Part shown: piece by piece, positions 6,053-42,398 of the stretch | Position numbering within the stretch: the first letter of the stretch is position 1 | Layout: every line of letters starts with the position of its first letter | Position numbers and translations under genes: made by a program | The notes under the pieces: generated by a model | Seen by the model: only the letters and a program-made list of their open reading frames with translations | Told to the model about the DNA's origin: nothing | Database searches by the model: none | Assembly (NCBI RefSeq): GCF_001647715.1 | Contig: NZ_CP015600.1 | Location: forward strand, 6,076,001 to 6,140,000 | Direction: 5' to 3' | Source of the DNA: Pseudomonas antarctica | Lineage (GTDB): Bacteria; Pseudomonadota; Gammaproteobacteria; Pseudomonadales; Pseudomonadaceae | DNA: 64,000 nt

Positions 6053-7078
6053 TTACTGACCCGCCACCTTCTCCGACTTGCCGTCATAGCGCTTGCGCCA
6101 TTCGGTCAGGATGCTGTCGCGGTTTTTAGAGGCCCAGGCGAAGTCGTTCTTGATCAGGCGTTGCTCGTAGTCAGCGGGCAATTCGGTCTGCGGCTTGGCG
6201 ATACCAGGCTGGGCGAGGACAGCGAAGTTGTCTTTGTACAGGTCCATCGCCGCCGTGCTGGCGGAGAAGTCAGCGAGCTTTTTAGCCGCCTCGGCGTGAG
6301 CGGTGCCCTTGATCACGGCCGTCGCTTCAATGTCCCAGCCCAGGCCTTCTTTGGGCAGGATGATATCCAGCGGCGCGCCCTGGCGTTTCAGTTGGACGGC
6401 CGGGTATTCGAAGGAAATGCCAATCGGGAATTCACCGGAAGCCGCCAGCTTGCAAGGCTTGGACCCGGAGTGAACGTACTGGCCGATGTTCTGGTGCAGG
6501 TCGTCCATGTACTGCCAGCCCTGTTTCTCGCCAAAGGTCTGCAGCCAGGCACTCACGTCCAGGAAGCCGGTGCCGGACGACGCCGGGTTCGGCATCACGA
6601 TCTTGCCCTTGTACTCAGGCTTGGTCAGGTCTTGCCAGCTCACCGGCTTGGTCAGGCCTTGCTTCTCGGCTTCGACAGTGTTGAAGCAGATGGTCGCAGC
6701 CCACACGTCCATGCCGACCCAGGCCGGTGGGTTGGCGGCGTCGCGGTAGTGCTTACCGATCTTGTCCAAATCCTTGGGCGCGTAGTTAGCCAGCATGCCT
6801 TGCTGGTCGAGGATCGCCAGGCTCGACGCGGCCAGGCCCCACACCACGTCGGCTTGCGGGCGATCTTTCTCGGCCAGCAGCTTGGCGGTGATGATGCCGG
6901 TGGAGTCGCGTACCCATTTGATCTCGACGTCCGGGTTGGCCTTTTCGAAAGCCTGTTTATAGGTCTTCAACTGCTCGGCTTCGAGGGCCGTGTACACCGT
7001 CAACTCGGTTTTGGCGGCAAAGGCATTCAGGCTGAATGCGCTGAGTAGAGCAGCGGCCAGAGCCAGGGGCTTGAACAT
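6053..7078 (-). CDS. phnS2: 2-aminoethylphosphonate ABC transporter, substrate-binding protein
   Basis: Periplasmic binding protein (341 residues) of the iron/phosphonate-type SBP class (SBP_bac_6/11). A Sec signal peptide ends around AFA at residues 20-22. The mature protein starts with ELTVYTALEAEQ and carries the family motifs STGIITAKLLAEK, ADVVWGLAASS and MPNPASSGTGF. It delivers 2-aminoethylphosphonate to the PhnV/PhnT transporter. A near-perfect Shine-Dalgarno AAGGAGGT precedes the ATG. It sits 19 bases downstream of the permease gene, in the middle of the operon. Homologues are annotated phnS2 (TIGR03261-type); the ligand is inferred from family and context. Confidence 0.88.
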   Translation of the reverse strand: MFKPLALAAALLSAFSLNAFAAKTELTVYTALEAEQLKTYKQAFEKANPDVEIKWVRDSTGIITAKLLAEKDRPQADVVWGLAASSLAILDQQGMLANYAPKDLDKIGKHYRDAANPPAWVGMDVWAATICFNTVEAEKQGLTKPVSWQDLTKPEYKGKIVMPNPASSGTGFLDVSAWLQTFGEKQGWQYMDDLHQNIGQYVHSGSKPCKLAASGEFPIGISFEYPAVQLKRQGAPLDIILPKEGLGWDIEATAVIKGTAHAEAAKKLADFSASTAAMDLYKDNFAVLAQPGIAKPQTELPADYEQRLIKNDFAWASKNRDSILTEWRKRYDGKSEKVAGQ

Positions 7079-10136: not shown

Positions 10137-11000
10137 TCAGAGCGGCGACATTTCCTGCGCCAACCCGAGAAACGCAGCAGGCAGGCGAGCCCCTTTTCTT
10201 TCCTTGAGGCAGTACAAATACTCAGGAATCTGCGGCGCGTTCTCGATGGTCAGCACGCGCAACTGCGGGTCATGGGGCACTTCCTGGCGGGCGATGATAC
10301 TGATACCGATGTTGCGCAGCACGGCCTCGCGAATCGACTCACGGCTGCCGATTTCCAGCAGTGGTCCGTAACTCACACCCGCGCCTTGTAACATTTCTTC
10401 GGTCAACCTGCGCGTGGTGGAACCCGCCTCACGCATCAACAGCGTGTGCCCGGCCAACGCACTGAGCGGTACATGATCGAGGGTGGCCAGAGGGTGATTG
10501 CGATGCACCGCCAGCACCAAAGGATCGGTGCCGAGTACGCGACGGATCAGACGAGGGTCTTCCAGCAGTTGCGAGGATGCGGCGACATCGACGCGGTAAT
10601 CATCCAACGCTTCGAGCACCTGCTGGGAGTTGCCGATTTCCACCGACACCTCCACGTGGGGCAGGCGCTCACGAAAGGCTTTGACCAGGTCGAGAATGTA
10701 ATACGGCGCCGTCGCGGCAATCCTCAAGGCACCCTGGACCTGGCCGCTGTTGCGCAGGAAAAACTCGATATCGGCTTCCTGCTGCAACAGCGTCTTGACC
10801 ATTGGCAGCAGCCGCGCACCTTCATCGCTGACGGTGAGGCGGCGGCCGCCTCGGTAGAACAGCTCAACGCCGTATTGGCTTTCCAGGTTACGAATCTGGG
10901 TGGTGACGGTGGGCTGGCTCAGGCCGAGTTTTTTCGCCGCCTGGGTAATGCTGCCCAGGCGGGCGACCATAAAAAACGCCTTCAACTCGGCACTCAGCAC
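10137..11000 (-). CDS. LysR-family regulator of aminoethylphosphonate catabolism
   Basis: A 287-residue LysR-type regulator. The winged helix-turn-helix is at residues 1-60 (SITQAAKKLGLSQPTVTTQI), then the linker and an inducer-binding domain of periplasmic-binding-protein fold (residues about 90-285). It is on the same strand as, and directly upstream of, the phosphonate operon, and resembles the LysR regulators of 2-aminoethylphosphonate operons (TIGR03339-type), so it likely activates phnT-phnZ. Unlike many LysR genes it is not divergent from its target. Its ATG is only 16 bases after the cadA stop, so read-through from cadA is possible. Confidence 0.83.
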   Translation of the reverse strand: MLSAELKAFFMVARLGSITQAAKKLGLSQPTVTTQIRNLESQYGVELFYRGGRRLTVSDEGARLLPMVKTLLQQEADIEFFLRNSGQVQGALRIAATAPYYILDLVKAFRERLPHVEVSVEIGNSQQVLEALDDYRVDVAASSQLLEDPRLIRRVLGTDPLVLAVHRNHPLATLDHVPLSALAGHTLLMREAGSTTRRLTEEMLQGAGVSYGPLLEIGSRESIREAVLRNIGISIIARQEVPHDPQLRVLTIENAPQIPEYLYCLKERKGARLPAAFLGLAQEMSPL

Positions 11001-11016
11001 GCCACCCTCTCATCGT

Positions 11017-13305
11017 CTATTTGCGCAACAGGCGCAGGCCATTGAACACCACCAGCAGGCTCACGCCCATGTCGGCGAACACCGCCATCCACATGGTGGC
11101 CATGCCGAGGAAAGTGACCGCGAGGAAGATCGCCTTGATCACCAACGCCAGGGCGATGTTCTGCTTGAGGATACTCGACGTTTGCCTGGAGAGCCGAATG
11201 AAAGCCGGGATCTTGCGCAAATCATCGTCCATCAGCGCCACGTCAGCGGTTTCAATCGCGGTGTCGGTGCCGGCTGCGGCCATGGCAAAACCGATCTCGG
11301 CGCGCGCCAGGGCCGGGGCGTCGTTGATCCCGTCACCGACCATGCCCACCCGGCGGCCCTGGCCGTAGAGGGTTTCGATGGCTTGCAGTTTGTCGGTGGG
11401 CAACAGGTCGCCCTGGGCCTGGTCGATGCCGACCTGAGCCGCAATCGCCTGGGCGGTATGGTTGTTGTCGCCGGTGAGCATCAAGGTCTTGATGCCCAGT
11501 TCGTGCAACTGCTGGATGGCTTCGCGGCTGCTGTCTTTGACGGTGTCGGCCACGGCGAACAGCGCCAGCGGGCCGGATTTGTCGAGCAACAGCACCACCG
11601 ACTTGCCTTGTTTTTCCAAGGCGAAGAGCTTTTCTTCCAGCTCAGGCGAGCACAGGCCCAAGTCTTCCACCAGGCGGTGGTTGCCCAGGTGGTAGGTTTC
11701 GCCGTTGATGTCGCCGCGCACACCGCGACCGGCCAGGGCCTCAAAGTTATCCACAACGTGGCTCGGCAGGTTTTTATCCACAGCTGCGTTGGCAATCGCC
11801 AGCGACACCGGGTGGTCGGAACGCCCGGCCAAGCTGGCCGCCAGCGCCGGCGCGCTGTCTGCGACATTGGGGAACATCGGCAAATAGTCGGTTTGCACCG
11901 GTTTACCGTGGGTGATGGTGCCGGTCTTGTCGAGGGCCAGGTAATCGAGCTTGTAACCGCCTTCCAGGTACACGCCACCCTTGATCAGGATGCCTTTGCG
12001 CGCCGCCGCCGCCAGGCCGCTGACGATGGTCACCGGGGTGGAGATCACCAAGGCGCAAGGGCAGGCAACCACCAGCAGGACCAGCGCGCGGTAGATCCAG
12101 TCGAACCACACGCCAGCCATGAACAGCGGTGGAATCACCGCCACGCCCAAGGCAAACAGGAACACTGCCGGGGTGTAGACCTTGGCGAAGCTGTCGACAA
12201 AACGCTGGGTCGGTGCCCGCGCGCCTTGGGCTTGCTCGACTGCGTGAATGATGCGCGCCAGGGTGGAATTGTTCGCCGCCGCGGTGACCTTGTACTCAAG
12301 GGAACCGGCTTGGTTGATGGTGCCGGCGAAGACTTTATCGCCCACAGTCTTTTCAATCGGCAGGCTTTCACCGGTGATCGGTGCCTGGTCGATGGTGGAT
12401 TGGCCGGCGGTGACTTCGCCGTCCAGGCCAATGCGCTCGCCGGGCTTTACTCGTACGATGGCGCCAAGATCGATGCTTTTGACCTCTTGTTCCAACCATG
12501 AGCCGTCAGCCTGTTGCACCGTGGCCTGTTCCGGGGTCATCTGCATCAAGCCGCTGATGGCATTGCGCGCACGGTCCAGGGACTTGGCTTCGATCAACTC
12601 GGCCACCGTAAACAGGAACATCACCATCGCCGCTTCAGGCCACTGACCGATCAGGATCGCGCCCGTCACCGCGATGCTCATCAGCGCGTTGATGTTCAAG
12701 TTAAGGTTTTTAAGCGCGATCCAGCCCTTTTTGTAGGTGGTGAGGCCGCCGCTGAGGATCGACACCAACGCCACCAAAGCAATCACCCAGGTCGGTGCGA
12801 CACCAGTGAAATGCAGCACCTCGGCACCCAACGCGCCGACACCGGAGACTGCAAGCGGCCACCAGTGTTTCTTGGCCGGCGGCGCAGCGGCCGGGGTGCC
12901 TTCTTCAATAGGATCGGCTTGCATACCGAGGGATTTGATGGCGTCGACGATCGGCGCCGTGCTCGGCAAGTCATGGGTGACGCCGAGAATGCGGTTGATC
13001 AGGTTGAATTCCAGCTGCTGCACACCGGCGAGCTTGCCCAGTTTGTTCTGGATCAGCGTCTGCTCGGTAGGGCAGTCCATGGCTTCGATGCGAAAGGTGC
13101 TCAGGCGCGAGCCGGCGGTCGGCGCTTCGCTCAGCGTCACCACGGCAGGCGCGGCCTTGCTTGCACAGCAGGAGTCGCCATGGCTGGCGTGGTCGTGCTT
13201 TTTGACGGGCGTCAGTTTGGCGCCGTGATCGTGGTCATGATCGTGCTTATGATCATGACTATGCGAGTGATCATGCTTTTTGGGGGTGTGGATGGAGTCG
13301 CTCAT
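11017..13305 (-). CDS. cadA: Cd2+/Zn2+-exporting P1B-type ATPase
   Basis: A 762-residue heavy-metal efflux pump of the inner membrane. A His/Asp-rich N terminus (HDHSHSHDHKHDHDHDHG) is followed by a heavy-metal-associated domain with the CadA-type DCPTE motif instead of CxxC. Transmembrane helices follow, with the metal-transport motif CPC in ACPCALVIS, the phosphorylation motif DKTGTITHG, the SDHPVSLA motif of the nucleotide domain and the hinge GDGINDAPALA. CPC plus a His-rich tail indicates Zn/Cd/Pb, not Cu. Transcribed divergently from cadR across a canonical CadR operator. The start at 13305 was chosen over an ATG at 13413, which would run through the operator. Confidence 0.94.
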   Translation of the reverse strand: MSDSIHTPKKHDHSHSHDHKHDHDHDHGAKLTPVKKHDHASHGDSCCASKAAPAVVTLSEAPTAGSRLSTFRIEAMDCPTEQTLIQNKLGKLAGVQQLEFNLINRILGVTHDLPSTAPIVDAIKSLGMQADPIEEGTPAAAPPAKKHWWPLAVSGVGALGAEVLHFTGVAPTWVIALVALVSILSGGLTTYKKGWIALKNLNLNINALMSIAVTGAILIGQWPEAAMVMFLFTVAELIEAKSLDRARNAISGLMQMTPEQATVQQADGSWLEQEVKSIDLGAIVRVKPGERIGLDGEVTAGQSTIDQAPITGESLPIEKTVGDKVFAGTINQAGSLEYKVTAAANNSTLARIIHAVEQAQGARAPTQRFVDSFAKVYTPAVFLFALGVAVIPPLFMAGVWFDWIYRALVLLVVACPCALVISTPVTIVSGLAAAARKGILIKGGVYLEGGYKLDYLALDKTGTITHGKPVQTDYLPMFPNVADSAPALAASLAGRSDHPVSLAIANAAVDKNLPSHVVDNFEALAGRGVRGDINGETYHLGNHRLVEDLGLCSPELEEKLFALEKQGKSVVLLLDKSGPLALFAVADTVKDSSREAIQQLHELGIKTLMLTGDNNHTAQAIAAQVGIDQAQGDLLPTDKLQAIETLYGQGRRVGMVGDGINDAPALARAEIGFAMAAAGTDTAIETADVALMDDDLRKIPAFIRLSRQTSSILKQNIALALVIKAIFLAVTFLGMATMWMAVFADMGVSLLVVFNGLRLLRK

Positions 13306-16746: not shown

Positions 16747-19026
16747 TTAGAGCGTTTTTGCCGAGGCCGGGTTGATCATCCGCGTCAGCCCCAAATTCTT
16801 CAGCGCCAGCTGAAGCGAGCTGTGGATAACTTGCGGGTTGTCGATGGTCATCAACTCGGCCAGCAACTCCTTGGCCATGCTCAGGTTTACCTGGCGCAGC
16901 AACCACTTCACCTTCGGCAAGTTGGTGGCGTTCATCGACAGGCTGTCAAAGCCCATCGCCATCAGCAGCACCGCTGCCGCCGGGTCGCCGGCCATTTCAC
17001 CGCAAATGCTCACCGGCTTGCCTTCGGCATGGGCGTCGCGCACCACGTGCTGCAAGGCTTGCAGTACCGCCGGGTGCAGGTAGTCGTAGAGGTCGGCCAC
17101 CCGTGGGTTGTTGCGGTCCACGGCCAGCAGGTATTGGGTCAGGTCGTTGGAACCGACCGAGAGGAAGTCCACTTGCCGCGCCAGTTCTTTAGCCTGGTAC
17201 ACCGCCGCCGGGATTTCGATCATGACGCCAATCGGCGGCATCGGTACGTCGGCGCCTTCGTCGCGTACTTCGCCCCAGGCACGGTGGATCAGGTGCAGTG
17301 CTTCTTCCAGCTCATGGGTGCCGGAGATCATCGGCAACAGAATGCGCAGGTTGTTCAGGCCTTCGCTGGCCTTGAGCATGGCGCGGGTCTGGACGAGGAA
17401 AATTTCAGGGTGATCAAGGGTTACACGAATGCCGCGCCAGCCAAGGAAGGGGTTGTCTTCCTTGATCGGGAAATAGGACAGTGACTTATCGCCGCCGATG
17501 TCCAGGCTGCGCATCGTCACCGGTAACGGGTGGAAGGCGGACAGTTGCTCGCGATAGATCGCGAGCTGCTCCTTTTCACTCGGGAAACGCTGGTTGATCA
17601 TGAACGGCACTTCGGTGCGGTACAGCCCAACCCCTTCGGCGCCACGTTGTTGTGCGCGGGCCACATCGGCGAGCAGGCCGGTGTTTACCAGCAACGGCAC
17701 GCGGTGGCCGTCGAGGGTCACGCACGGCAGCTCGCGCAGCGAATCGAGGCCCAGCGCCAGCTGTTTCTCTTCTTCCACCACTTCGGCGTATTGCTTGCGC
17801 AACAGCTCGCTGGGGTTGGTAAAGACTTCACCGCGATGCCCATCGACGATCATGTCGATGCCGTCGACCTTGGAATACGGCAGGTCCACCAGGCCCATCA
17901 CCGTCGGGATGCCCATGGCCCGAGCCAGGATCGCGACGTGGGAGTTACCCGAACCCAATACCGAGACCAGGCCCACCAGTTTGCCTTCCGGCACTTCGCC
18001 GAGCATCGTGGCGGTCAGTTCTTCACTGATCAAAATGGTGTTGTCGGGGTAGACCAGGTTGGTGGTGCGGTCTTCCTGCAGGTAGGCCAGCAGACGGCGA
18101 CCCAGGTCACGCACATCCGAGGCGCGCTCGCGCAGGTAGGCGTCGTCCATCAGTTCGAAACGGTTGACGTGATCGGTGACCACCTGGCGCAACGCGCCCT
18201 GGGCCCACTGGCCGGTCTTGATCACGGTTTTGACTTCATTACCCAGCGACGCGTCGTCGAGCATCATCTGGTACACGTCGAACAGCGCGCGCTCTTCGGG
18301 GCGCAGTTGTGTAGCCAGCTTGGTCGACAGGTTGCGCATATCCGCGCGCACGCCTTCCAGGGCGGTCTTGAACAGTTTGATTTCAGCGTCAATGTCGTTG
18401 ACGGTCTTGTCCGGCACCACATCGAGGTCGGCCGGTGGCAGCATGACCACCGCCGTGCCGACGGCAGCGCCCGGAGAACCCGGTACGCCGACGAACTTGG
18501 CTTCCTGGATGCCCTTGCCCTGGCGACCCAGGCCGCGAATCGAGCCGGTGGCTTCGGCATGGGCGATAACCCCGGCCAACTGCGCACTCATGGTCACGAG
18601 GAAGGCTTCTTCACCTTCGTCGAACTGGCGGCGTTCTTTTTGCTGAATGACCAACACGCCGACAACGCGGCGGTGGTGAATGATCGGTGCGCCGAGGAAC
18701 GAGGCGTAACGCTCTTCACCGGTTTCGGCAAAGTAGCGGTAACGCGGGTGATCGGCCGCGTTTTCGAGGTTGAGGGGTTCTTCACGCGTCCCCACCAGGC
18801 CCACCAGACCTTCATTGGGCGCCATGCTGACTTTGCCGATGGAGCGCTTGTTCAAGCCCTCCGTGGCCATCAGCACAAAACGGTTGGTCTCGGGGTCCAG
18901 CAGGTAAACCGAGCAGACCTGGCTGCCCATGGCTTCCTTGACGCGCAACACAATAATCCCCAACGCCGCCTTGAGATCCTTGGCGGAGTTAACTTCCTGG
19001 ACGATCTTGCGCAGCGTATTGAGCAT
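16747..19026 (-). CDS. ptsP: Phosphoenolpyruvate-protein phosphotransferase, nitrogen PTS (EI-Ntr)
   Basis: First enzyme of the nitrogen-related phosphotransferase chain (EI-Ntr to NPr to EIIA-Ntr), a signalling relay. 759 residues: an N-terminal GAF sensory domain (about 17-160), then the PTS EI N-terminal domain, the phosphohistidine domain with LGSGNSHVAILARAMGIP (active His363) and the PEP-utilising TIM barrel with RSLDIGGDK, IMIEIPAAV-like and SICGEMAGDP motifs. The length matches PtsP of Pseudomonas. rppH lies directly upstream (22-base gap), as in E. coli and P. aeruginosa, and both are probably in one operon. Confidence 0.96.
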   Translation of the reverse strand: MLNTLRKIVQEVNSAKDLKAALGIIVLRVKEAMGSQVCSVYLLDPETNRFVLMATEGLNKRSIGKVSMAPNEGLVGLVGTREEPLNLENAADHPRYRYFAETGEERYASFLGAPIIHHRRVVGVLVIQQKERRQFDEGEEAFLVTMSAQLAGVIAHAEATGSIRGLGRQGKGIQEAKFVGVPGSPGAAVGTAVVMLPPADLDVVPDKTVNDIDAEIKLFKTALEGVRADMRNLSTKLATQLRPEERALFDVYQMMLDDASLGNEVKTVIKTGQWAQGALRQVVTDHVNRFELMDDAYLRERASDVRDLGRRLLAYLQEDRTTNLVYPDNTILISEELTATMLGEVPEGKLVGLVSVLGSGNSHVAILARAMGIPTVMGLVDLPYSKVDGIDMIVDGHRGEVFTNPSELLRKQYAEVVEEEKQLALGLDSLRELPCVTLDGHRVPLLVNTGLLADVARAQQRGAEGVGLYRTEVPFMINQRFPSEKEQLAIYREQLSAFHPLPVTMRSLDIGGDKSLSYFPIKEDNPFLGWRGIRVTLDHPEIFLVQTRAMLKASEGLNNLRILLPMISGTHELEEALHLIHRAWGEVRDEGADVPMPPIGVMIEIPAAVYQAKELARQVDFLSVGSNDLTQYLLAVDRNNPRVADLYDYLHPAVLQALQHVVRDAHAEGKPVSICGEMAGDPAAAVLLMAMGFDSLSMNATNLPKVKWLLRQVNLSMAKELLAELMTIDNPQVIHSSLQLALKNLGLTRMINPASAKTL

Positions 19027-19048
19027 GGCTCGGGGTCGAACTCCGTCG

Positions 19049-19528
19049 TCAGTCGCGCGCTAAAAGGCGCGGGGCAAGCTCTTTGAGAGCGCGACGATAA
19101 ACCTCGCGCTTGAATGTCACCACCTGGCCCAACGGGTACCAATAGCTGACCCAGCGCCAGCCATCGAACTCCGGTTTACCGGTCAAATCCATCCGCACCC
19201 GCTGCTCGTTGGAGATCAGGCGCAGGAGAAACCATTTCTGCTTCTGGCCGATGCACAGCGGTTGGCTGTGCGTACGCACCAGGCGTTGCGGCAAACGATA
19301 GCGCAACCAGCCGCGAGTACAGGCCAGAATTTGCACATCTTCGCGCTCAAGGCCGACTTCTTCATTCAACTCACGGTACAAGGCGTCTTCAGGGGTTTCG
19401 TCGGGGTTGATTCCGCCTTGAGGAAACTGCCAGGCATCTTGGTTGATTCGGCGAGCCCATAGCACCTGTCCGGCATCATTCGTAAGAATAATCCCGACAT
19501 TAGGACGGAAACCATCGGGGTCGATCAC
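19049..19528 (-). CDS. rppH: RNA pyrophosphohydrolase (Nudix)
   Basis: Removes pyrophosphate from the 5' triphosphate of transcripts, triggering RNase E decay. The 159-residue product has the Nudix box at residues 38-60 ([13 protein letters not shown]...RELNEEVGL), preceded by the [13 protein letters not shown] motif specific to RppH/YgdP. The start is a GTG at 19528 ([12 protein letters not shown]); upstream in-frame residues do not match the family. Cotranscribed with ptsP. A 143-base gap separates it from the divergent phosphatase gene. Confidence 0.93.
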
Positions 19529-19671
19529 GGCAACAACCTCGCAAACGCATGTCGCCGCATTGTTCCACAAAGGTTGATCCAGCGGCAACGAGGCTTCTTA
19601 CCTTATGTGCACTCTTGTGAAAAGACCGTATTCTGGACGCCTTTTTACAGACTTTTCAGCGAGTAACTGCA

Positions 19672-20328
19672 ATGCGCCTGGCTTTATTCGACTTGGACAA
19701 CACGCTTCTGGGCGGTGACAGCGATCACGCCTGGGGCGATTACCTCTGCGAACGCGGAATTCTCGACGCGGTGGCCTACAAGGCGCGCAACGATGAGTTT
19801 TACCAGGATTACCTGGCCGGCAAGCTGGATAACGCCGCTTACCTTAACTTCTGCCTGGAAATCCTCGGCCGCACCGAGATGGCCCAGCTGGACGAATGGC
19901 ACAACGACTATATGCGTGACTGCATCGAGCCGATCATGCTGCCGCAGGCCGTGGAACTGCTGGCCAAGCACCGTGCCGCCGGCGACAAGCTGGTGATCAT
20001 CACCGCGACCAACCGCTTCGTCACCGCACCGATTGCCGCGCGCCTGGGGGTTGAAACCCTGATCGCCACCGAGTGTGAGATGGAAAATGGCCGCTACACC
20101 GGGCGCAGCACCGATGTGCCGTGCTTTCGCGAGGGCAAGGTGACGCGCTTGAATCGTTGGCTGGAAGAAACCGGGCATAGCCTGCAAGACAGCTACTTCT
20201 ACAGCGATTCGATGAATGACTTGCCGTTGCTGGAGCAGGTGACCCACCCGGTGGCGGTGGACCCGGACCCGAATCTTCGGGCTGAGGCCCAGAAGCGTGG
20301 CTGGCCGGTGATTAGCCTGCGCGGCTGA
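19672..20328 (+). CDS. HAD-IB phosphatase, likely histidinol-phosphatase
   Basis: A 218-residue haloacid dehalogenase-like hydrolase of subfamily IB. Motif I is [11 protein letters not shown] at residues 6-16 with two catalytic aspartates, motif II ITATNR, a conserved Lys in REGKVTRL, and motif [14 protein letters not shown]. It sits at the position of PAO1 PA0335 next to rppH-ptsP; that gene has been reported as the missing histidinol-phosphate phosphatase, so this is the best guess for substrate. Phosphoserine phosphatase-like activity is the alternative. Divergent from rppH and followed by a REP pair. Confidence 0.82.
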
Positions 20329-20333
20329 TAACG

Positions 20334-20422
20334 CCTTCGCGAGCAAGCCCGCTCCCACATTGTGACCGCGCTCCCTCTGAAGGAACCGGCTCGAATGTGG
20401 GCGCAGGCTTGCTCGCGAATGA
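20334..20422. repeat. REP pair between HAD gene and DUF2269 gene
   Basis: Arms CTTCGCGAGCAAGCCCGCTC and facing GGCTTGCTCGCGAA with a spacer; the right arm has lost part of the GTGGGAGC core (GTGGGCGC). Between convergent genes. Confidence 0.85.
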
Positions 20423-20442
20423 AGTCGACTCGGTCCCAAGCC

Positions 20443-20910
20443 TTACATCGGCTTAGCCACCATCAAATAGAAAATCGCCACAAACGCCAGAAACGCCGGC
20501 CAGCCCAGGCCAAACCACCAACGCATATAGGTTGTCGCCTTGAGCGGCATCGCCGTGCCGTCGCGCAACGCCTGCTCCGCCATCTTATGCACACGAATCT
20601 GCAACCACACCACCGGCAGCCAGCAAATCCCCGCCAGGCAATACAGGCCGACGGTCCATTGCAGCCAGCTCTGCTGCATCGACCAGCCCGCCAAATGCAT
20701 CAAGCCGACCCCGCTCAAGGGCTGGAGCACCGCCGTGGTCGCGGTAAACGCCCAGTCGGCGAACACCAGGTGCTTGAAGGTCACGGCGATCACTTCAACC
20801 TTGCCGCTGCGCCAGGCGCGCAAGGCGTAGTAAGCCGAGCCTGCGCCCAACCCGAACAGAATGGTCGACGACAGGATATGCAGGGTTTTCAGCAGCAGGT
20901 AAGCGCTCAT
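20443..20910 (-). CDS. DUF2269 family membrane protein
   Basis: A 155-residue integral membrane protein with four hydrophobic helices. It shares the pattern K-x-x-H-I near the start and HLxGWxxxQxW in the middle with the DUF2269 protein at 22167-22580, so the two are paralogues. Its start overlaps the stop of the SDR-DoxX gene by 4 bases (ATGA), so it is translationally coupled. Function unknown; the family is predicted integral membrane. Last gene of a possible ilvA-led transcript. Confidence 0.8.
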   Translation of the reverse strand: MSAYLLLKTLHILSSTILFGLGAGSAYYALRAWRSGKVEVIAVTFKHLVFADWAFTATTAVLQPLSGVGLMHLAGWSMQQSWLQWTVGLYCLAGICWLPVVWLQIRVHKMAEQALRDGTAMPLKATTYMRWWFGLGWPAFLAFVAIFYLMVAKPM

Positions 20911-31643: not shown

Positions 31644-32129
31644 ATGCGCTTTTCGCCTGGCCTTGTACTTTTGCTGCCCCTTCTGAGCCCTTTGGCTCAC
31701 GCCGAACTGATTGATGATGTGTTTGATCGCGGCGAACTGCGCATCGCCGTGGAGGCCAACACACCGCCATTCAACTTCAAGGACGGCGACAAGCTCACCG
31801 GTTTTGAAGTGGAACTCGGAGAGCAACTGGCGAAGGAAATGGACGTGCGTCCCTCGTTTATCACCACCGATGACACCGACCTGCTGTCAGGCGTTGAAAC
31901 CGGCAAGTACGACGTGGCCATCAATCATATCGCTATGACTGCCGAGCTGCGTGATCGGTTCGATTTCAGTGAGCCTTATCGCGAAAAGCCGGAACTGGCG
32001 ATTCCCTTCCAGAAGGGCAACCCGGCATTCAAGACCAGCCTGGACAAGGCATTGCAGCACGTGAAGGCCGATGGCCGCTTGAAGGCGCTGACGCAGAAGT
32101 GGTTTGAGGGCAACACAAAAGGCGAATAA
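31644..32129 (+). CDS. Truncated amino-acid-type solute-binding protein (SBP_bac_3, lobe 2 missing)
   Basis: A 161-residue protein with a signal peptide (cleavage after AHA at residue 20) and the first lobe of a family 3 periplasmic binding protein: GELRIAVEANTPPFNF, GFEVELGEQLAKEM, LLSGVETGKYDVAINHIAMTAEL, FDFSEPY. It then jumps to the final family segment, AIPFQKGNPAFKTSLDKAL and DGRLKALTQKWF. A normal member has about 80-90 residues of lobe 2 between these, so the gene looks internally deleted in frame. The reading frame and SD are intact. It may be a decayed gene or a reduced protein with a new role. No permease or ATPase is adjacent. Confidence 0.72.
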   Translation: MRFSPGLVLLLPLLSPLAHAELIDDVFDRGELRIAVEANTPPFNFKDGDKLTGFEVELGEQLAKEMDVRPSFITTDDTDLLSGVETGKYDVAINHIAMTAELRDRFDFSEPYREKPELAIPFQKGNPAFKTSLDKALQHVKADGRLKALTQKWFEGNTKGE

Positions 32130-35258: not shown

Positions 35259-35837
35259 ATGCGACAGCCCTACCGTTCCGCCCTGTTCGCCAGCCTGATC
35301 CTGATCATCTGCACCGGCGTGCTGTGGGCGGCGTATGACTGGTTCCAGGGCCGCTACCTGCGCGCGTTCAGCGAACACACGGCCGTGTTCTCCGGCGACG
35401 CCCTGCGCCTGCCCGCCGAACTCGCAGGCCCAGGCCCGATTCGCCTGGTGCACTTCTGGGACCCGGCCTGCCCGTGCAACGTCGGCAACCAGCAACACCT
35501 GGGCGAGCTCATCGAGCAATACGCGCCCCAAGGCGTCGAGTTCTATGCCCTGCAAAAAGCCGGCAGCCACGGCCAACTGCCCGACAACCTGCGCAAGATG
35601 AAAACCCTCAATAACCTGGCCGGCGCCGATCAGGTGCCCGCCACCCCGGCTGTCGGGATTTGGGATCGCACTGGCAAGCTCGCGTATTTCGGACCGTACA
35701 GCGAAGGGCTGACGTGTAATTCCAGCAACAGCTTTATCGAGCCGATTTTGAAAGCCCTTGAGGCCGGGCGCGAAGTCGATGCGACCCATACTCTGGCGGT
35801 AGGCTGCTATTGCGAGTGGAGCAAGGCATCAAACTGA
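35259..35837 (+). CDS. DUF6436 thioredoxin-fold membrane-anchored protein
   Basis: A 192-residue protein with an N-terminal hydrophobic anchor (residues about 8-25), then a thioredoxin-like domain with HFWDPACPCN (Cys71, Cys73) in place of the classic CxxC and a TPAVGIWD segment at the cis-proline position. The C-terminal GCYCEW carries two more cysteines. It should face the periplasm. A CPC redox site is unusual; it may act as an oxidoreductase or a metal-binding protein. Divergent from the hydrolase; 90 bases ahead of the EamA pair. Confidence 0.78.
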   Translation: MRQPYRSALFASLILIICTGVLWAAYDWFQGRYLRAFSEHTAVFSGDALRLPAELAGPGPIRLVHFWDPACPCNVGNQQHLGELIEQYAPQGVEFYALQKAGSHGQLPDNLRKMKTLNNLAGADQVPATPAVGIWDRTGKLAYFGPYSEGLTCNSSNSFIEPILKALEAGREVDATHTLAVGCYCEWSKASN

Positions 35838-35927: not shown

Positions 35928-36284
35928 ATGAGCCAGCTAACCATCATCCTCTGGATGCTCAACGTTATCGTGGATACGTCCGGCCAGTTGGCTTTCAAAG
36001 CCGCCGCCTCTGCCAGCGCCGAGCATGACGGCATGGCCCACTGGAAGCACATGCTCAAGCGCCCCTGGATCTGGCTTGGCGTGATCTGCTACGTCTTCGA
36101 ATTCGTGTTGTGGCTGGCGTTTCTCACGCTGGTGCCGTTGTCGGTCGGCGTGATGCTAGGCTCGATCAATATTGTGGTGATCATGATTGCCGGGCGTTTC
36201 CTGTTCAAGGAAAGCCTGACCAAATGGCGGTTGATCGGCATCATGCTGATCGCCTGTGGCGTGACCGTTGTGGGGTTTGAATAA
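35928..36284 (+). CDS. Small EamA/SMR-like membrane protein (ArnE-like), subunit 1
   Basis: A 118-residue protein with four hydrophobic helices, half the size of normal EamA/DMT carriers. The segment VDTSGQLAFKAA in helix 1 corresponds to the xxGQLxxK motif of ArnE, and GVMLGSINIVVIMIAGRFLFKE matches the second EamA half. Its stop overlaps the start of the next small EamA gene by one base (TAATG), so the two are likely subunits of one heteromer, like ArnE/ArnF. Probably flips or exports a small lipid-linked or polar molecule. Confidence 0.82.
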   Translation: MSQLTIILWMLNVIVDTSGQLAFKAAASASAEHDGMAHWKHMLKRPWIWLGVICYVFEFVLWLAFLTLVPLSVGVMLGSINIVVIMIAGRFLFKESLTKWRLIGIMLIACGVTVVGFE

Positions 36285-36697
36285 TGAAACGGTTCTATAT
36301 CCTGGGCTTTCTGGCGCTGATCATTTTTGACACGTTGGCGCAGGTCAGTTTCAAATTCGCCTCGGTGCATGCCGAACCACTGACGATGGATACCGCCTGG
36401 TTGGTGCGCGTGTTTGGCGCACCTTGGATCTACGGCGCCTTCGTGGGCTACATCGGCGCGTTCTTCACCTGGATGACGTTGCTTAAGTACGCACCGGTGG
36501 GGCCCGCGTTTGCGGCGTCCCATTTGGAGTTGATCAGCGTGACGCTGATCTCTGTCTGGTTATTCGATGACACCCTGACCTGGCCAAAAATCATCGGCGG
36601 CGCATTGATCATCGCAGGCATTCTCTGTCTCGCACGCAGTGAAGACAAAGAGAGCAAAACTGTCGAGGCCGAACCTTCGCAGCCACTGGCGTCATGA
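36284..36697 (+). CDS. Small EamA/SMR-like membrane protein (ArnF-like), subunit 2
   Basis: A 137-residue partner of the preceding protein with four hydrophobic helices. Helix 1 carries IFDTLAQVSFKFAS, the mirror of the LAQxxFK motif of ArnF, and the fourth helix ends in a charged cytosolic tail. It overlaps the preceding gene by one base and the following aminotransferase by four bases (ATGA), so all three are translationally coupled. Confidence 0.82.
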   Translation: MKRFYILGFLALIIFDTLAQVSFKFASVHAEPLTMDTAWLVRVFGAPWIYGAFVGYIGAFFTWMTLLKYAPVGPAFAASHLELISVTLISVWLFDDTLTWPKIIGGALIIAGILCLARSEDKESKTVEAEPSQPLAS

Positions 36698-37911
36698 CCA
36701 GGGAAATCCCGCCCACCGCTGGCCTGCCCTTAAGCTGGCGGGATTTGCTGAACCTTTCGGGCGACTTGGCCCAGTCTCTGGCCCGCCAGTTCTCGATTCC
36801 ACTGCCGGCGCTGCCCTGCTCCGGCACCGCCGCCCTGATCATCGCCCTGCGGGTCTTGCAGCAACGCATGCCCGGCCGCACCCGGCTGATCGTGCCGGCC
36901 TACACCTGCCCGCTGGTGGCGTTGGCCGCCCATTACTGCCCGCCGTTGCGCGTCGTACCCTGCGATTTGCAGCCAGGCAGCATTGACCTGGACGAACAGC
37001 AACTGAAACACCTGTGTGACGACAGCACGCTGGCCGTGGTGGTCACCCATCTGGCCGGGCGCGTCGCGGACGTCGATACCGCCAAGCGTATTGCCGATTC
37101 TGTCGGCGCTGTGGTCATCGAAGACGCGGCCCAAGCCATGGGCGCACTCGACGACGGCCGCAGCGTCGGGCTCAAAGGTGATGTGGGATTTTTCAGCATG
37201 GCGCTGGGCAAAGGGCTGACGACGGCCGAAGGCGGCGTGCTGTTCAGCCGCGACCCGGTGTTGCATCAGGCGCTGCACCGCCAATGCGCACAGGACCTGC
37301 CTTTCAGCCTGCGCTGGGAGCTGCAACGCAGCGCCGAGTTGTGGGGTTACGCGCTGCTTTACCAACCGCGCGGCTTGCACTATGTGTATGGCAAGCCGTT
37401 GCGCAAAGCGCTGGAACAGGGCGATGAAGTGAGTGCCGTGGGCGACGACTTTTCGGTGAATGACATCCCGTTGCACCGCCTGGGCGGCTATCGCCAGAAG
37501 GTCGGCGCCGCCGCACTGGCTCGCCTGCCCGATTACTTGCAGCAAGGCCGCGCCCGGGCCTTGCGCCGTGCAGCTCGCTTGAATGCCTTGCCCGGCGTCT
37601 CGGTCGTTATGGACAGACCAGGCCAACAAGGCACCTGGCCCTTTCTGATGGTGATGATGCCGTCTGCACAGGCCCGGGATGCGGCGATGGCGCAGTTGTG
37701 GACCTCGGGGCTGGGCGTGACCCGCCTGTTTATCCACACATTGCCGGACTACCCCGACGTGGCCCCGCTGCTGCAGCCTGGCGGCGATATCAGCCAAGCC
37801 CAGGCGTTCGCGACCCGCACACTGTCGATCAGTAACAGCCATTGGCTGACGGACGAACACTTCGAACAGATACTCAAGCAACTCAAGGCTATCGTCGCCA
37901 GCCTTCGTTGA
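36694..37911 (+). CDS. DegT/DnrJ/EryC1/StrS-family PLP aminotransferase
   Basis: A 405-residue sugar-aminotransferase-fold protein. The PLP phosphate-binding motif CSGTAALIIAL starts at residue 42, the PLP-ring aspartate is Asp144 in VIEDAAQAMGA, and the Schiff-base lysine is Lys173 in ALGKGLTTAEGG. The active site is therefore complete. ArnB and similar enzymes make amino sugars for envelope glycans. Third gene of the EamA-EamA-DegT operon. The 3' end overlaps the convergent arginase-fold gene by 23 bases. Substrate unknown; no sugar biosynthesis genes are adjacent. Confidence 0.85.
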   Translation: MTREIPPTAGLPLSWRDLLNLSGDLAQSLARQFSIPLPALPCSGTAALIIALRVLQQRMPGRTRLIVPAYTCPLVALAAHYCPPLRVVPCDLQPGSIDLDEQQLKHLCDDSTLAVVVTHLAGRVADVDTAKRIADSVGAVVIEDAAQAMGALDDGRSVGLKGDVGFFSMALGKGLTTAEGGVLFSRDPVLHQALHRQCAQDLPFSLRWELQRSAELWGYALLYQPRGLHYVYGKPLRKALEQGDEVSAVGDDFSVNDIPLHRLGGYRQKVGAAALARLPDYLQQGRARALRRAARLNALPGVSVVMDRPGQQGTWPFLMVMMPSAQARDAAMAQLWTSGLGVTRLFIHTLPDYPDVAPLLQPGGDISQAQAFATRTLSISNSHWLTDEHFEQILKQLKAIVASLR

Positions 37912-38767
37912 TACGCGCCACCAGGCGGCTGTTCAGCTCGTTCTGCTGCTGTTGCCAGATCTGCACCTGGGCCTCAGGCAGTTCTTCCTGGCCATCGGAG
38001 GCACTCAACCAACGTTTGAACTTGCTTTCATAGTGGTAGGCCGACACATCGCCAGTGATGTCCGCGCCAATGATCTGGCCCTGGCAGGCACTGATCAGGT
38101 CGTTCAGATGCTGCTCCAGGAATTCGCCCTGATCCCAGTTGGTGTTCACCACTTCCGGGCTCAGCACATCTTTATCGATGGACAGGTACACCGGCAGTGA
38201 ACGGTCAAACTGTGCCAGGAACGCGCGCATCAGCGCATCTGCATTGCTGAAGGCACGATTACTGCGCCCGGCGCCGATCCAGTTCATCCAGCGCGTGTCG
38301 ACGTTGACGTTCCAGTAGGTCAACTTGCGCTTGAGCAGCGGCGACCAGTGATTCTCCCACGCGTGGCCCAGGCCAATATCCTGCGAACCGATGCCCAACA
38401 CATGCACATGCTCGACCTGCGGCAAGCGGCTGGCCCAGTAGACCCAGGAGCCGCAGTGGATGCCGAACGGGTAGCGCATGTTATCGGGATGGTTGTCGCA
38501 GATGATCAGCTGGAACTTCTGCTGCGTCGGCAGGCGATTCAACAACAGCTGGCTGAGGTGGTGATAATCACCGCTGCCGGTAAATACACAGCCGTAATCG
38601 CTGGGCATTTGTGCGTGCAGGGCGGTTTCCAGCTCTTTGAATTGTGCCCAGCGGCAGCCGAAACGGATTTTTTCCTGCCAGGCCTGCAACGGCAACGTAA
38701 TCGCGCCGGGAATGTCACTGACGGCACTGTCGAAATCGAGAATCAGCGGCGGTCGGGCCTGGCTCAT
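37889..38767 (-). CDS. Arginase/ureohydrolase-fold protein of unknown substrate
   Basis: A 292-residue protein resembling the arginase-deacetylase fold. All the binuclear-metal ligand motifs can be placed: a His in GSGDYHH (residues 65-70), the DxHxD motif CDNHPDN (Asp91, His93, Asp95) and SxDxD in YLSIDKDVLSPE (Asp198, Asp200). The spacing and surrounding sequence differ strongly from agmatinase and arginase, so the substrate may be another amidine, amide or N-acyl compound. The start at 38767 overlaps the stop of the upstream acyltransferase gene (ATGA). It overlaps the DegT gene end to end. Confidence 0.72.
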   Translation of the reverse strand: MSQARPPLILDFDSAVSDIPGAITLPLQAWQEKIRFGCRWAQFKELETALHAQMPSDYGCVFTGSGDYHHLSQLLLNRLPTQQKFQLIICDNHPDNMRYPFGIHCGSWVYWASRLPQVEHVHVLGIGSQDIGLGHAWENHWSPLLKRKLTYWNVNVDTRWMNWIGAGRSNRAFSNADALMRAFLAQFDRSLPVYLSIDKDVLSPEVVNTNWDQGEFLEQHLNDLISACQGQIIGADITGDVSAYHYESKFKRWLSASDGQEELPEAQVQIWQQQQNELNSRLVARINEGWRR

Positions 38768-39870
38768 GAGGTGTGCTCCTGATGCCACTGGGTATCACTT
38801 TCAAAGTGATGACGGAACCGGTTGCCCAGCTTGCGCAACAGCGGGTTACGCACCCAGACCAGATGGCGGGTAAAGGTAAAGTCGGCGCCCAGGCTGGCCT
38901 TGACCTGCGGGTCGGTCCAACCCGCCACATAAAATTTCAGCCCATTGGCCAGCGCATATTCAAGGTTCACAAACCAACTGACGACATACAGGTTGAACTC
39001 CAGCGCCAGCGGGTAGCTAAGGCCGATGTACTTGTCGAGCAGCTTGTCGCCCTCCACGTAGCACAGGTTGTAGCCGATCAGCTCGTCGCAGTGCCAATAG
39101 CAGAACACGCGCCCGTTACTGCAGGCGTCCCGCAGAAGGCTGCTGAAAAATTCAGGGGTGAGCAGGTCAAAATGGATCTCGCTCTGGTCGTACACCGCCT
39201 TGTACAACCCGTACAACTGCGTGAGCCAGGCGTCATCGTTGAAGCGCGCATCACCGGTGTCCAGGACTTCCACCCGCAACGCCTCACGGCTGCGCAGTTT
39301 GCGTCGGATATTGCGGCGACGGCTGTGGGACAAGCGCGCCAGGTACTCATCAACCGTGGCAAAGTTGATCGGCACGTAGGCCAGCGCCTGCCCCTCGAGG
39401 CTGATGAAACCGCGCCGGGTGCACTCATCGATCAAGGCTTGCGCGTAGCGGTTATCCGCCTCGCTGAGCAGCGGAGAGTCGCACGGCACGTCTTTGACGA
39501 TGGTGAGCTTGCGCTGCGGCGCGCACGCCTCTTGCAACCACTGCGCGAGGTCCTGAGGCGACACGTCTTGGGGCAGTGGTGAATATTCACTGACCGTGGT
39601 CCCCACAAAACAACTGTCGACACGCAGCCAGGCATTCCAGAAACGATACCCGGGCCAGCTGCGAACACGCTTTTCGAACGCATCGTCGGCGGTGGTCAAC
39701 AGGTCGAAGGGCGTAAAGAAATACGGCAGGCCCTGGTCGGACAGACGAGCATCGAAGCCCACTGGCGGGTGCTGCAAAAAGCGGCTGATCAGCGACTGCG
39801 CTTCCAGGCAGCACGCATAGGCAACCTCGGAGCGGCTGGAGTCTGGAATGGGTTGCGGGGCGCAAGTCAT
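38764..39870 (-). CDS. FemAB-like / GNAT-fold acyltransferase
   Basis: A 368-residue protein whose C-terminal half (about 180-330) resembles the Acetyltransf_6 / peptidoglycan-aminoacyltransferase (FemAB) type of GNAT fold: INFATVDEYLARLSHSRRRNIRRK, then GRVFCYWHCDELIGYNLCYVEG, then SYPLALEFNLYVVSWFVNLEYAL and KFYVAGWTDPQVKASLGA. Basic RRRNIRRK is typical of this group. No signal peptide. Translationally coupled to the arginase-fold gene. It probably transfers an acyl or aminoacyl group; donor and acceptor unknown. The start at 39870 is chosen after the S-rich noncoding upstream region; 39972 is the alternative. Confidence 0.75.
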   Translation of the reverse strand: MTCAPQPIPDSSRSEVAYACCLEAQSLISRFLQHPPVGFDARLSDQGLPYFFTPFDLLTTADDAFEKRVRSWPGYRFWNAWLRVDSCFVGTTVSEYSPLPQDVSPQDLAQWLQEACAPQRKLTIVKDVPCDSPLLSEADNRYAQALIDECTRRGFISLEGQALAYVPINFATVDEYLARLSHSRRRNIRRKLRSREALRVEVLDTGDARFNDDAWLTQLYGLYKAVYDQSEIHFDLLTPEFFSSLLRDACSNGRVFCYWHCDELIGYNLCYVEGDKLLDKYIGLSYPLALEFNLYVVSWFVNLEYALANGLKFYVAGWTDPQVKASLGADFTFTRHLVWVRNPLLRKLGNRFRHHFESDTQWHQEHTS

Positions 39871-40040
39871 GGAAAAAAGCTCAAAGATGACGGGCGCAAT
39901 AGTAGCGTATTCAGGGTGCTCAACACTTGAACCTCGGCTGTCACAGCGGCGCATCGTGCGCGATATCAGCATTTCCCTCAGCCCTCGCCAAACCTATTAG
40001 ACTCCGTTGACCTTCAAGGTGAATGACTCAAGGACCGTCC

Positions 40041-42398
40041 ATGAAACGCAGCCTGACCGTGCTCGCTATCCTGATTGCCGCCCTCATGGCCGGCGCCGGC
40101 TGGTATGTCTACAGCAAGCAACCCACCCGCCAGGGCACCGAAACACTCGCCAACCTGCAAGGCGCGGTCACCGTGCGCTATGACGACCGGGGCGTGCCGC
40201 ACCTGCGGGCCGAGAACGAGACCGACCTGTACCGCGCCCTCGGCTATGTGCATGCACAGGACCGGCTGTTCCAGATGGAGATCATGCGGCGCCTGGCCCG
40301 TGGCGAACTGGCCGAGATACTGGGCCCGAAGATGCTCGAGACCGACAAGCTGTTCCGCAGCCTGCGCATTCGCGAACGCGCCTTGAGTTACGTGGAACAC
40401 ATGGACCACGATTCGCCGGCCTGGAAGGCCTTGCAAGCCTACCTGGACGGGATCAACCAATTTCAGGACAGCCACGCCAGCCCAATGGAGTTTGACGTAC
40501 TGGGCATCCCCAAGCGGCGGTTTACCGCTGAGGACACCATCAGCGTCGCCGGGTACATGGCCTACAGCTTTGCCGCCGCGTTTCGTACCGAGCCGCTGCT
40601 GACTTACGTACGCGACCAATTGGGCGGCGACTACCTGAAAGTCTTCGACCTCGACTGGCAGCCCAAAGGCGCGCTTAACCTGGCCGCCCGTGATTGGCAG
40701 ACGCTCGGCGCGCTTGCCTCCTTGAGCGACAGGGCCTTGGCCGAGAATGGCTTGCCGCAGTTCGAAGGCAGCAACGCCTGGGCCATCAGCGGCAGCCGCA
40801 CCAAGAGCGGCAAGCCCTTGCTGGCGGGCGACCCGCATATCCGTTTCTCGGTACCGTCGGTGTGGTACGAAGCGCAGCTCTCCGCACCCGGCTTTGAGCT
40901 CTACGGCTATCACAACGCGCTGGTGCCGGTGGCGTTCCTGGGGCACAACCTGGATTTCGGCTGGAGCCTGACCATGTTCCAGAACGATGACCTCGACCTG
41001 ATCGCCGAAAAGGTCAACCCCGACAACCCCAACCAGGTCTGGTACCACGGCCAATGGGTCAACATGACCAGCAGCGAGCAACAGATCGCGGTGAAGGGCC
41101 AGGCACCGGTGACCCTCACTCTGCGCCAGTCGCCCCACGGCCCGATCATCAATGATGTACTCGGCGAGAATGCCGGCAACACGCCGATTGCCATGTGGTG
41201 GGCATTCCTCGATACCGAGAATCCGATCCTCGAAGGTTTCTACCAGCTCAACCGCGCCGATACCCTGGCCAAGGTGCGCGCCGCGGCGGCCAAGGTTTCT
41301 GCACCGGGCCTGAATATCGTATGGGCAAATGCCAAGGGTGATATCGGCTGGTGGGCGGCGGCGCAATTGCCGATCCGCCCGGCCGGGGTCAACCCGGCGT
41401 TCATTCTCGACGGCAGCACCGCCCAGGCCGACAAGCTGGGTTTCTACCCTTTCAGCGCCAACCCCCAGGAAGAAAACCCGGCGCGGGGTTACGTGGTGTC
41501 GGCCAATGCCCAGCCGGCCTCACCCACCGGCATGGAAATCCCCGGTTACTACAACCTGGCCGACCGTGGCCAGCAATTGAACACGCAGTTGAGCGACAAA
41601 AGCGTGAAGTGGGACGTGAACAACAGCCAAGCCTTGCAACTGGGCACGACCACCGCCTACGGCCCACGCTTGCTGGCACCGCTGTTGCCGGTGCTGCGTG
41701 ACGTGGTCAAGGACCCGGCGCAGTTGAAACTGGTAGAACAATTGGCCGCCTGGAAAGGCGACTATCCGCTGGACTCCACCAGCGCCACACTCTTCAATCA
41801 GTTCCTGTTTAACCTCACCGACGCGGCCTTCCACCCAAAACTGGGCGACGCCCTGTTTAAAACCCTGCTCGGTACTCGGGTGATCGACGCCGCGCTGCCA
41901 CGCCTGGCCGCCTCGCCGGACTCGCCCTGGTGGAACGGCAAGCGCGCCGACACCGTCAAGCTCGCCTGGGACAACAGCCTGGCTCACCTCAAAGCCACCT
42001 TCGGCGATGACCCGACGCAATGGCAGTGGGGCAAGGCCCACACCCTGACCCACGGCCACCCGTTAGGCATGCAGAAGCCACTGGACAAGGTCTTCAATGT
42101 GGGCCCGTTCCCGGCGCCCGGCACCCACGAAGTGCCAAACAACCAGTCGGCGATGATCGGCCCCGCGCCCTGGCCGGTCACTTATGGCCCATCGACCCGT
42201 CGATTGATCGACTTCGCCGACCCGGCCCACGCCCTGACCATCAACCCGGTAGGGCAAAGCGGTGTGCCGTTTGACCGGCACTATGGCGACCAGGCCGAAA
42301 CCTACATTGAAGGCGGGTACGAACAGGCGCATTTCAGTGATGAGGAAGTGACGGCGAATACGCGGGGCACGCTGAAGCTGTTGCCTGCGAGAAAATAG
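40041..42398 (+). CDS. hacB: N-acyl-homoserine-lactone acylase / penicillin acylase-family enzyme
   Basis: A 785-residue Ntn-hydrolase precursor. An N-terminal signal or anchor (residues 5-25) exports it to the periplasm, where it self-cleaves between Gly243 and Ser244 in FEGSNAWAISG, making Ser244 the catalytic beta-chain N terminus. Other family motifs: VHAQDRLFQMEIMRRLARGE in the alpha chain and NNQSAMIGP near the C terminus. It corresponds by position (just beyond spuH on the opposite strand side) to PAO1 PA0305 HacB, which degrades long-chain acyl-homoserine lactones. Whether this one prefers AHL or another N-acyl substrate is not known. The ATG at 40041 gives MKRSLTVLAI. Confidence 0.87.
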   Translation: MKRSLTVLAILIAALMAGAGWYVYSKQPTRQGTETLANLQGAVTVRYDDRGVPHLRAENETDLYRALGYVHAQDRLFQMEIMRRLARGELAEILGPKMLETDKLFRSLRIRERALSYVEHMDHDSPAWKALQAYLDGINQFQDSHASPMEFDVLGIPKRRFTAEDTISVAGYMAYSFAAAFRTEPLLTYVRDQLGGDYLKVFDLDWQPKGALNLAARDWQTLGALASLSDRALAENGLPQFEGSNAWAISGSRTKSGKPLLAGDPHIRFSVPSVWYEAQLSAPGFELYGYHNALVPVAFLGHNLDFGWSLTMFQNDDLDLIAEKVNPDNPNQVWYHGQWVNMTSSEQQIAVKGQAPVTLTLRQSPHGPIINDVLGENAGNTPIAMWWAFLDTENPILEGFYQLNRADTLAKVRAAAAKVSAPGLNIVWANAKGDIGWWAAAQLPIRPAGVNPAFILDGSTAQADKLGFYPFSANPQEENPARGYVVSANAQPASPTGMEIPGYYNLADRGQQLNTQLSDKSVKWDVNNSQALQLGTTTAYGPRLLAPLLPVLRDVVKDPAQLKLVEQLAAWKGDYPLDSTSATLFNQFLFNLTDAAFHPKLGDALFKTLLGTRVIDAALPRLAASPDSPWWNGKRADTVKLAWDNSLAHLKATFGDDPTQWQWGKAHTLTHGHPLGMQKPLDKVFNVGPFPAPGTHEVPNNQSAMIGPAPWPVTYGPSTRRLIDFADPAHALTINPVGQSGVPFDRHYGDQAETYIEGGYEQAHFSDEEVTANTRGTLKLLPARK

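Follow-up and report, generated by a model that had tools for sequence, protein, structure and literature searches.

The stretch analysed here, hereafter the window, comprises 64,000 nucleotides of the Pseudomonas antarctica contig NZ_CP015600.1 (positions 6,076,001 to 6,140,000). It carries a block of five genes in two converging operons, encoding a pair of small EamA-type membrane proteins, a DegT-family aminotransferase, an arginase-like enzyme and a FemAB-like transferase. We find that these genes form half of a larger gene set, the other half of which is located elsewhere in the same genome. The genes of the block and its borders are as follows.

35928..36284, plus strand: EamA1, small EamA/SMR-like membrane protein of 118 aa, first half of the transporter pair (PF00892, 39.5 bits)
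36284..36697, plus strand: EamA2, 137 aa, second half of the transporter pair (PF00892, 30.6 bits)
36694..37911, plus strand: DegT, aminotransferase dependent on pyridoxal phosphate (PLP), 405 aa, accessory member (PF01041, 135.1 bits; Lys173)
37889..38767, minus strand: ARG, enzyme of the arginase/ureohydrolase fold with His and Asp metal motifs (assigned by motifs and predicted fold)
38764..39873, minus strand: FEM1, FemAB-like tandem-GNAT transferase, 369 aa, probable aminoacyltransferase (PF04339, 52.3 bits)
35259..35837, plus strand: DUF6436 gene, outside the system, left border of the inserted block
40023..42398, plus strand: penicillin-amidase-family gene (Pfam), outside the system, right border of the inserted block

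The five open reading frames (ORFs) and their overlapping starts lie where the initial annotation had placed them, including the 23 bases (37889-37911) shared by the 3' ends of the DegT and ARG genes. The starts chosen here are the ATG at 38767 for ARG, which overlaps the FEM1 stop, and the ATG at 39873 for FEM1; the ORF listing has longer forms with upstream starts. The family assignments also stand (Pfam cut-offs: PF00892, 28.2; PF01041, 19.8; PF04339, 27; PF00491, 22 bits), with ARG scoring slightly below the PF00491 cut-off, at 20.8 bits, and its relatives L153 and L035 reaching 29.6 and 26.2. By its PF01041 score and its PLP lysine, the aminotransferase belongs to the DegT/DnrJ/EryC1/StrS family. 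Lys173, reported earlier as intact, lies within GKGLTTAEGG, and at least 97% of 48 aligned DegT rows share it.

The block as an inserted unit in Pseudomonas

In 398 Pseudomonas genomes, ARG has one match per genome in each carrier, either an orthologue (16 genomes, 82-100% identity; window type) or a distant relative (74 genomes, 34-40%). No genome has both types (0/398, P 0.035, uncorrected for relatedness), which gave no useful indication of whether the two types avoid each other. EamA2, ARG, FEM and the penicillin-amidase gene occur together in all 16 window-type loci, although EamA2 lies only partly within the fetched stretch in 14 of them; DegT is found in 14, the genomes without it being G031 and G172. 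EamA1 is present wherever wider sequence was read, that is, in four window-type loci and in 16 named Pseudomonas loci. It adjoins EamA2 in each of the latter, 13 of which also have DegT. In P. kitaguniensis (L056), DegT was not seen, and ∼2.3 kb of extra sequence lies between EamA1 and DUF6436 (10661-12951). For the initial annotation, the single-system reading would fall if the operons were rarely neighbours or if the EamA pair and DegT kept unrelated partners. The outcome speaks against such a refutation: a DegT orthologue occurs in 14 of the 398 genomes, every one of which belongs to the 16 block carriers.

A search for the flanks in 14 genomes yielded ten loci, two of them block-bearing. 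The block was inserted as a unit, since the DUF6436 and penicillin-amidase genes adjoin each other in all eight block-free genomes examined. Composition gives no foreign mark, as the GC content is 60.5% in the block and 60.6% in the window. In a midpoint-rooted ARG tree of 83 sequences (the window, 72 of the 80 best loci described below, left after filtering, and ten distant relatives), the window type is nested among Acinetobacter and Enterobacterales sequences with a support of 0.985, and the distant sequences from Pseudomonas, rhizobia and Roseomonas fall outside this grouping.

The wider gene set and the second locus

We scanned named genomes and retained the best 80 of 366 ARG relatives, which come from three classes of Proteobacteria. 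In 80/80 loci, FEM precedes ARG on the same strand, at a distance of -3 to 277 bases. When the ORFs were clustered by BLAST, EamA was found in 68 loci and DegT in 56. The 64 non-Pseudomonas loci, some of them cut by contig ends, contain genes for an alpha/beta hydrolase (ABH, 53 loci), a class III aminotransferase (AT3, 52), EamA (52), a HAD phosphatase (HAD, 47), DegT (43), MipA (24), a sensor kinase (18), a FabF-type ketosynthase (17) and a response regulator (13). When single examples were checked against Pfam and NCBIfam, AT3 belonged to PF00202 and MipA to PF06629, and the HAD protein was MtnX-like, scoring above the TIGR01489 cut-off. Several loci (e.g., L088, L089, and L095) have only FEM and ARG of the set within the stretch, L089 with an SDR gene in addition. 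DegT is an accessory member, being absent from two of the 16 window-type genomes and not found in 21 of these 64 partly truncated loci.

The arrangement of the genes varies. The operons converge in Enterobacterales, Rhodanobacteraceae and some Acinetobacter, and diverge in other Acinetobacter; in Bartonella, a two-component system splits the set. A protein search of plasmids returned 47 records, of which eight covered the greater part of the query, and five were examined. Agrobacterium and Rhizobium plasmids carry a single operon of HAD, AT3, ARG, EamA, desaturase, ABH, FEM, EamA and a CMAS-family (cyclopropane-synthase-like) enzyme, with a two-component system ahead and MipA facing it; the desaturase and the CMAS-family enzyme were identified by Pfam, FEM and the other members by their matches to the set. 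The Agrobacterium locus L152 is on a plasmid that types as conjugative; there, genes for a phosphoethanolamine (PEtN)-lipid A transferase and a diacylglycerol kinase (18742-20777) come after the pathway operon. The Roseomonas copy comprises DegT, the EamA pair, HAD, ARG, ABH, FEM, a kinase and a sigma-54 regulator, its AT3-like gene being distant (25%). On a bat Bartonella plasmid, AT3, FEM and ARG are the only members seen.

The gene set is thus conserved across loci, which makes the cluster more than a chance one. The convergent orientation, with no shared promoter, would suit two unrelated operons that happen to be neighbours, but this is contradicted by the adjacency of FEM and ARG in every locus, by EamA in 52 of the 64 non-Pseudomonas loci, by the several gene orders, and by the single insertion unit, and we regard its probability as negligible. 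The claim that the converging operons make up a single system is therefore supported, since they co-occur in distant families and are parts of one inserted block.

In the P. antarctica genome, HAD, AT3 and ABH cluster at a second locus (G000:C1:1307666-1310572) on the same contig, 4.8 Mb from the block. The gene order there (L144, G000:C1:1299500-1319000) is MipA, HAD, AT3 and ABH, then a second FemAB-like gene (FEM2), followed by genes for a HAMP histidine kinase and a sigma-54 response regulator; a GlpM gene lies beside the locus. The kinase and regulator genes, directly downstream of FEM2 (L144 12252-15417), appear to be the core-locus switch. In 33 Pseudomonas genomes chosen by handle, we found AT3, ABH and HAD matches in 16/16 window-type carriers, 7/7 distant-type carriers and 1/10 non-carriers (G006); in G241, ABH is cut off by the contig end. 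Across all 398 genomes, AT3 (E ≤ 1e-150) is present in 88 of 90 ARG carriers versus 24 of the 308 genomes without ARG (Fisher P 6e-63, uncorrected for relatedness). Both carriers without AT3 are accounted for: in G271 the contig terminates inside HAD, and in G176 AT3 is broken by a stop. The latter gene (G176:C32:30287-31653) has a stop and a frame change while the window-type block is kept, which may be a sequencing error or early decay. It is well supported, then, that the five window genes are half of one single pathway whose other half is at the second locus, so that the five-gene extent given in the initial annotation was too narrow.

The content of the set is nested. FEM2 is present in 10/10 tested ARG carriers and in 6/24 genomes with AT3 only; among nine further non-carriers, there is a weak relative (26% identity) in G003 alone. 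Fifteen of the 24 AT3-only loci were sampled, including that of G006 (L146): the EamA pair is kept there in ten and FEM2 in three, all three with EamA. In G006, ARG is lacking and the other layers are kept except DegT; at L146 the gap left by ARG (∼6275-6528) is flanked by the regulator gene and EamA, and the remaining cluster is retained. The content of the AT3-only loci indicates that a core of HAD, AT3, ABH and the kinase can stand alone, with EamA, FEM, ARG and DegT as successive layers, and this layering points to the FEM product as the substrate of ARG.

In 27/27 Pseudomonas loci, HAD is preceded by a sigma-54-type motif that matches at 9 or 10 of 11 positions, with GG and GC obligatory, and in 17/18 ARG or EamA is preceded by one; these loci are related rather than independent. 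Single-base shuffles of the same stretches attained nine matches in 0 to 4.5%. No such motif was found near the starts of the window's own two operons; hence the block may be regulated differently.

Enzyme families and predicted folds

In ARG, residues H69/H70, D91-x-H93-x-D95 and D198-x-D200 are invariant in 69 sequences. They correspond to the binuclear metal motif of ureohydrolases (His of GGDH, DxHxD, DxD), as defined in PMC10028609. The AlphaFold2 model (predicted local distance difference test, pLDDT, 94.8) has an arginase fold, and its nearest folds among the matches listed are agmatinase, arginase, proclavaminate amidinohydrolase and guanidinopropionase. Deacetylases share this broad fold, but a deacetylase identity for ARG was set aside, as the matches listed are all ureohydrolases; absence from that listing excludes nothing. 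Assignment to the OspR-type peptide arginases was rejected too, since neither ARG nor two of its relatives matched PF12640 at E ≤ 0.1. A sequence search for PDB relatives of ARG and FEM gave nothing informative, and no NCBIfam model matches either protein, even weakly.

FEM1 matches only PF04339 (FemAB_like) and PF13480 (Acetyltransf_6) in Pfam. Its predicted structure (pLDDT 91.4) is a tandem-GNAT fold, whose best structural matches are aminoacyl-tRNA-dependent transferases, above acyl-CoA enzymes; the closest are the streptothricin-type aminoacyl-tRNA-dependent peptide synthases Sbb17/Sba18, at 14-16% identity. This suggests that FEM1 transfers an amino acid, rather than acylating or deacylating as had been proposed.

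We retain acylation as the main rival explanation. Under it, FEM would be an N-acyltransferase acting on acyl-ACP (acyl carrier protein) or acyl-CoA, ARG would cut a small guanidino or formimino precursor, and an N-acylated aminolipid would be made with no tRNA step. It draws on the PF13480 match, on the desaturase and CMAS genes of the rhizobial operons, and on the ACP and FabF-like ketosynthase genes that adjoin FEM in some Rhodanobacteraceae loci (L100, L107, and L120) and are additional, with HlyD/ABC/TolC genes, in the Xanthomonas sacchari copy. However, the ketosynthase was not found in 47 of the 64 non-Pseudomonas loci, and the ranking of structural matches runs the other way, so we hold this reading to be rather unlikely. 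Ketosynthase and ACP were rejected as core parts, being present in a subset of loci only; the number of ACP loci is not used, since antisense ORFs contaminate the ACP cluster (30 loci).

A second rival makes the product a secreted small molecule, such as an antibiotic, signal or metal binder, in place of an envelope component. The patchy distribution and the plasmid-borne copies would fit, as would the streptothricin-type folds nearest to FEM and the presence of an antibiotic enzyme, proclavaminate amidinohydrolase, among the nearest folds of ARG. On the other hand, MipA, the nearby PEtN-lipid A transferase and diacylglycerol kinase, the desaturases and the small EamA pair all point to the envelope, which leaves this explanation improbable.

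The initial annotation had drawn a parallel with the enterobacterial Arn system. In an Arn-like pathway, DegT would aminate a nucleotide sugar, and the EamA pair would flip a lipid-linked amino sugar destined for lipopolysaccharide. The PDB relatives of DegT are indeed sugar or cyclitol aminotransferases, including ArnB, and the best-scoring named models are ArnE for EamA1 and ArnF for EamA2. Nevertheless, all the scores are far under the NCBIfam cut-offs: 35.8 bits for EamA1 against ArnE (cut-off 92), 32.2 bits for EamA2 against ArnF (99) and 54.6 bits for DegT against ArnB (NF008658; 631), and we therefore rejected membership in the Arn system. Moreover, many copies have no DegT, and no glycosyltransferase was recognised among the 45 largest neighbourhood families, judged by eye only. 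Such a pathway is very improbable, and the parallel is a weak one. Overall, the earlier interpretation is partly supported: the unity of the two operons survives, and the five-gene extent does not.

A role in anti-phage defence was rejected, as PADLOC gave no match for the five proteins at E ≤ 0.001. Elsewhere in the window, a 161-aa ORF (31644-32129) encodes an amino-acid-type periplasmic binding protein, possibly a shortened copy, being short for this family.

Proposed pathway and comparison with known systems

Our preferred reading, held tentatively and at somewhat less than even confidence, is that the block, acquired horizontally, supplies the second half of a modular pathway for making and exporting an amine-rich, probably lipid-linked, envelope compound. 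HAD, AT3 and ABH, here at the second locus, would make an amine-bearing acceptor, with acyl chains supplied in some taxa by the dedicated ketosynthase and ACP. In the simplest reading, the amine itself would come from AT3 (and DegT). FEM would load an amino acid, most likely arginine, from tRNA onto the acceptor amine, and ARG would then hydrolyse the guanidino group of the bound residue, yielding urea and ornithine. The choice of arginine is a guess from the ureohydrolase fold of ARG and its dependence on FEM; no tRNA for ornithine is known. DegT, or in other taxa the desaturase or cyclopropane-synthase-like enzyme, may tailor the product. The EamA pair would carry the product, which is cationic, to the outer leaflet, a task done in their own systems by the MprF membrane domain and ArnE/F, and the two-component systems would turn the core on. 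A lipid link is suggested by the desaturase, CMAS, ACP and ketosynthase partners. The fully specified version, in which a stand-alone tRNA transferase puts arginine on the AT3-made amine, an arginase converts it to bound ornithine and a two-subunit EamA flippase exports it, so that the system is a dispersed functional analogue of MprF with interchangeable modules in three classes of Proteobacteria, is doubtful.

If true, this would provide a route for bacterial ornithine attachment via tRNA, assign a function to one branch of the PF04339 FemAB_like family, and give an EamA pair, beside envelope regulators, a part in exporting a cationic product. The conserved set comprises ∼8-10 genes in Pseudomonas, Acinetobacter, Enterobacterales, Rhodanobacteraceae, Bartonella and rhizobia, with proteins annotated, e.g., as hypothetical protein or arginase. 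Its split into two loci and nested content offer a ready order for genetic dissection. The enzyme families and the amine modification of envelopes are already known, while the assembled system is apparently undescribed: we found no description of this cluster in the open-licence literature. On ICEPca4 of Pectobacterium, one paper mentions a protein of the arginase family and a MipA/OmpV protein (PMC9373382), and another lists an agmatinase and an 880-base EamA gene close together in a Pantoea region (PMC5817063).

Several known systems share features with this one. The Arn system (ArnB, ArnE/ArnF) likewise joins two small EamA proteins, which move its cationic product to the outer leaflet, with a DegT-family aminotransferase; unlike it, the window block scores far under the Arn cut-offs and has an optional DegT. 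Peptide arginases (OspR, pfam12640; enteropeptin type, pfam00491), as described in PMC10028609, also have a ureohydrolase fold with the DXHXD motif, lie in biosynthetic clusters and act on bound residues, converting Arg to Orn, as we propose for ARG; the OspR type differs from ARG in its pfam12640 domain.

The streptothricin-type synthases resemble FEM by fold, at the low identity given above. MprF, the aminoacyl-phosphatidylglycerol synthase, has its own flippase membrane domain and shares the tandem-GNAT aminoacyltransferase fold with FEM. By contrast with the fused flippase and synthase domains of MprF, the 369-aa FEM1 has only its PF04339/PF13480 matches, and the present system distributes its functions over separate genes, including separate genes for the membrane transporter, and adds aminotransferases, an arginase-like enzyme, a phosphatase and a hydrolase.
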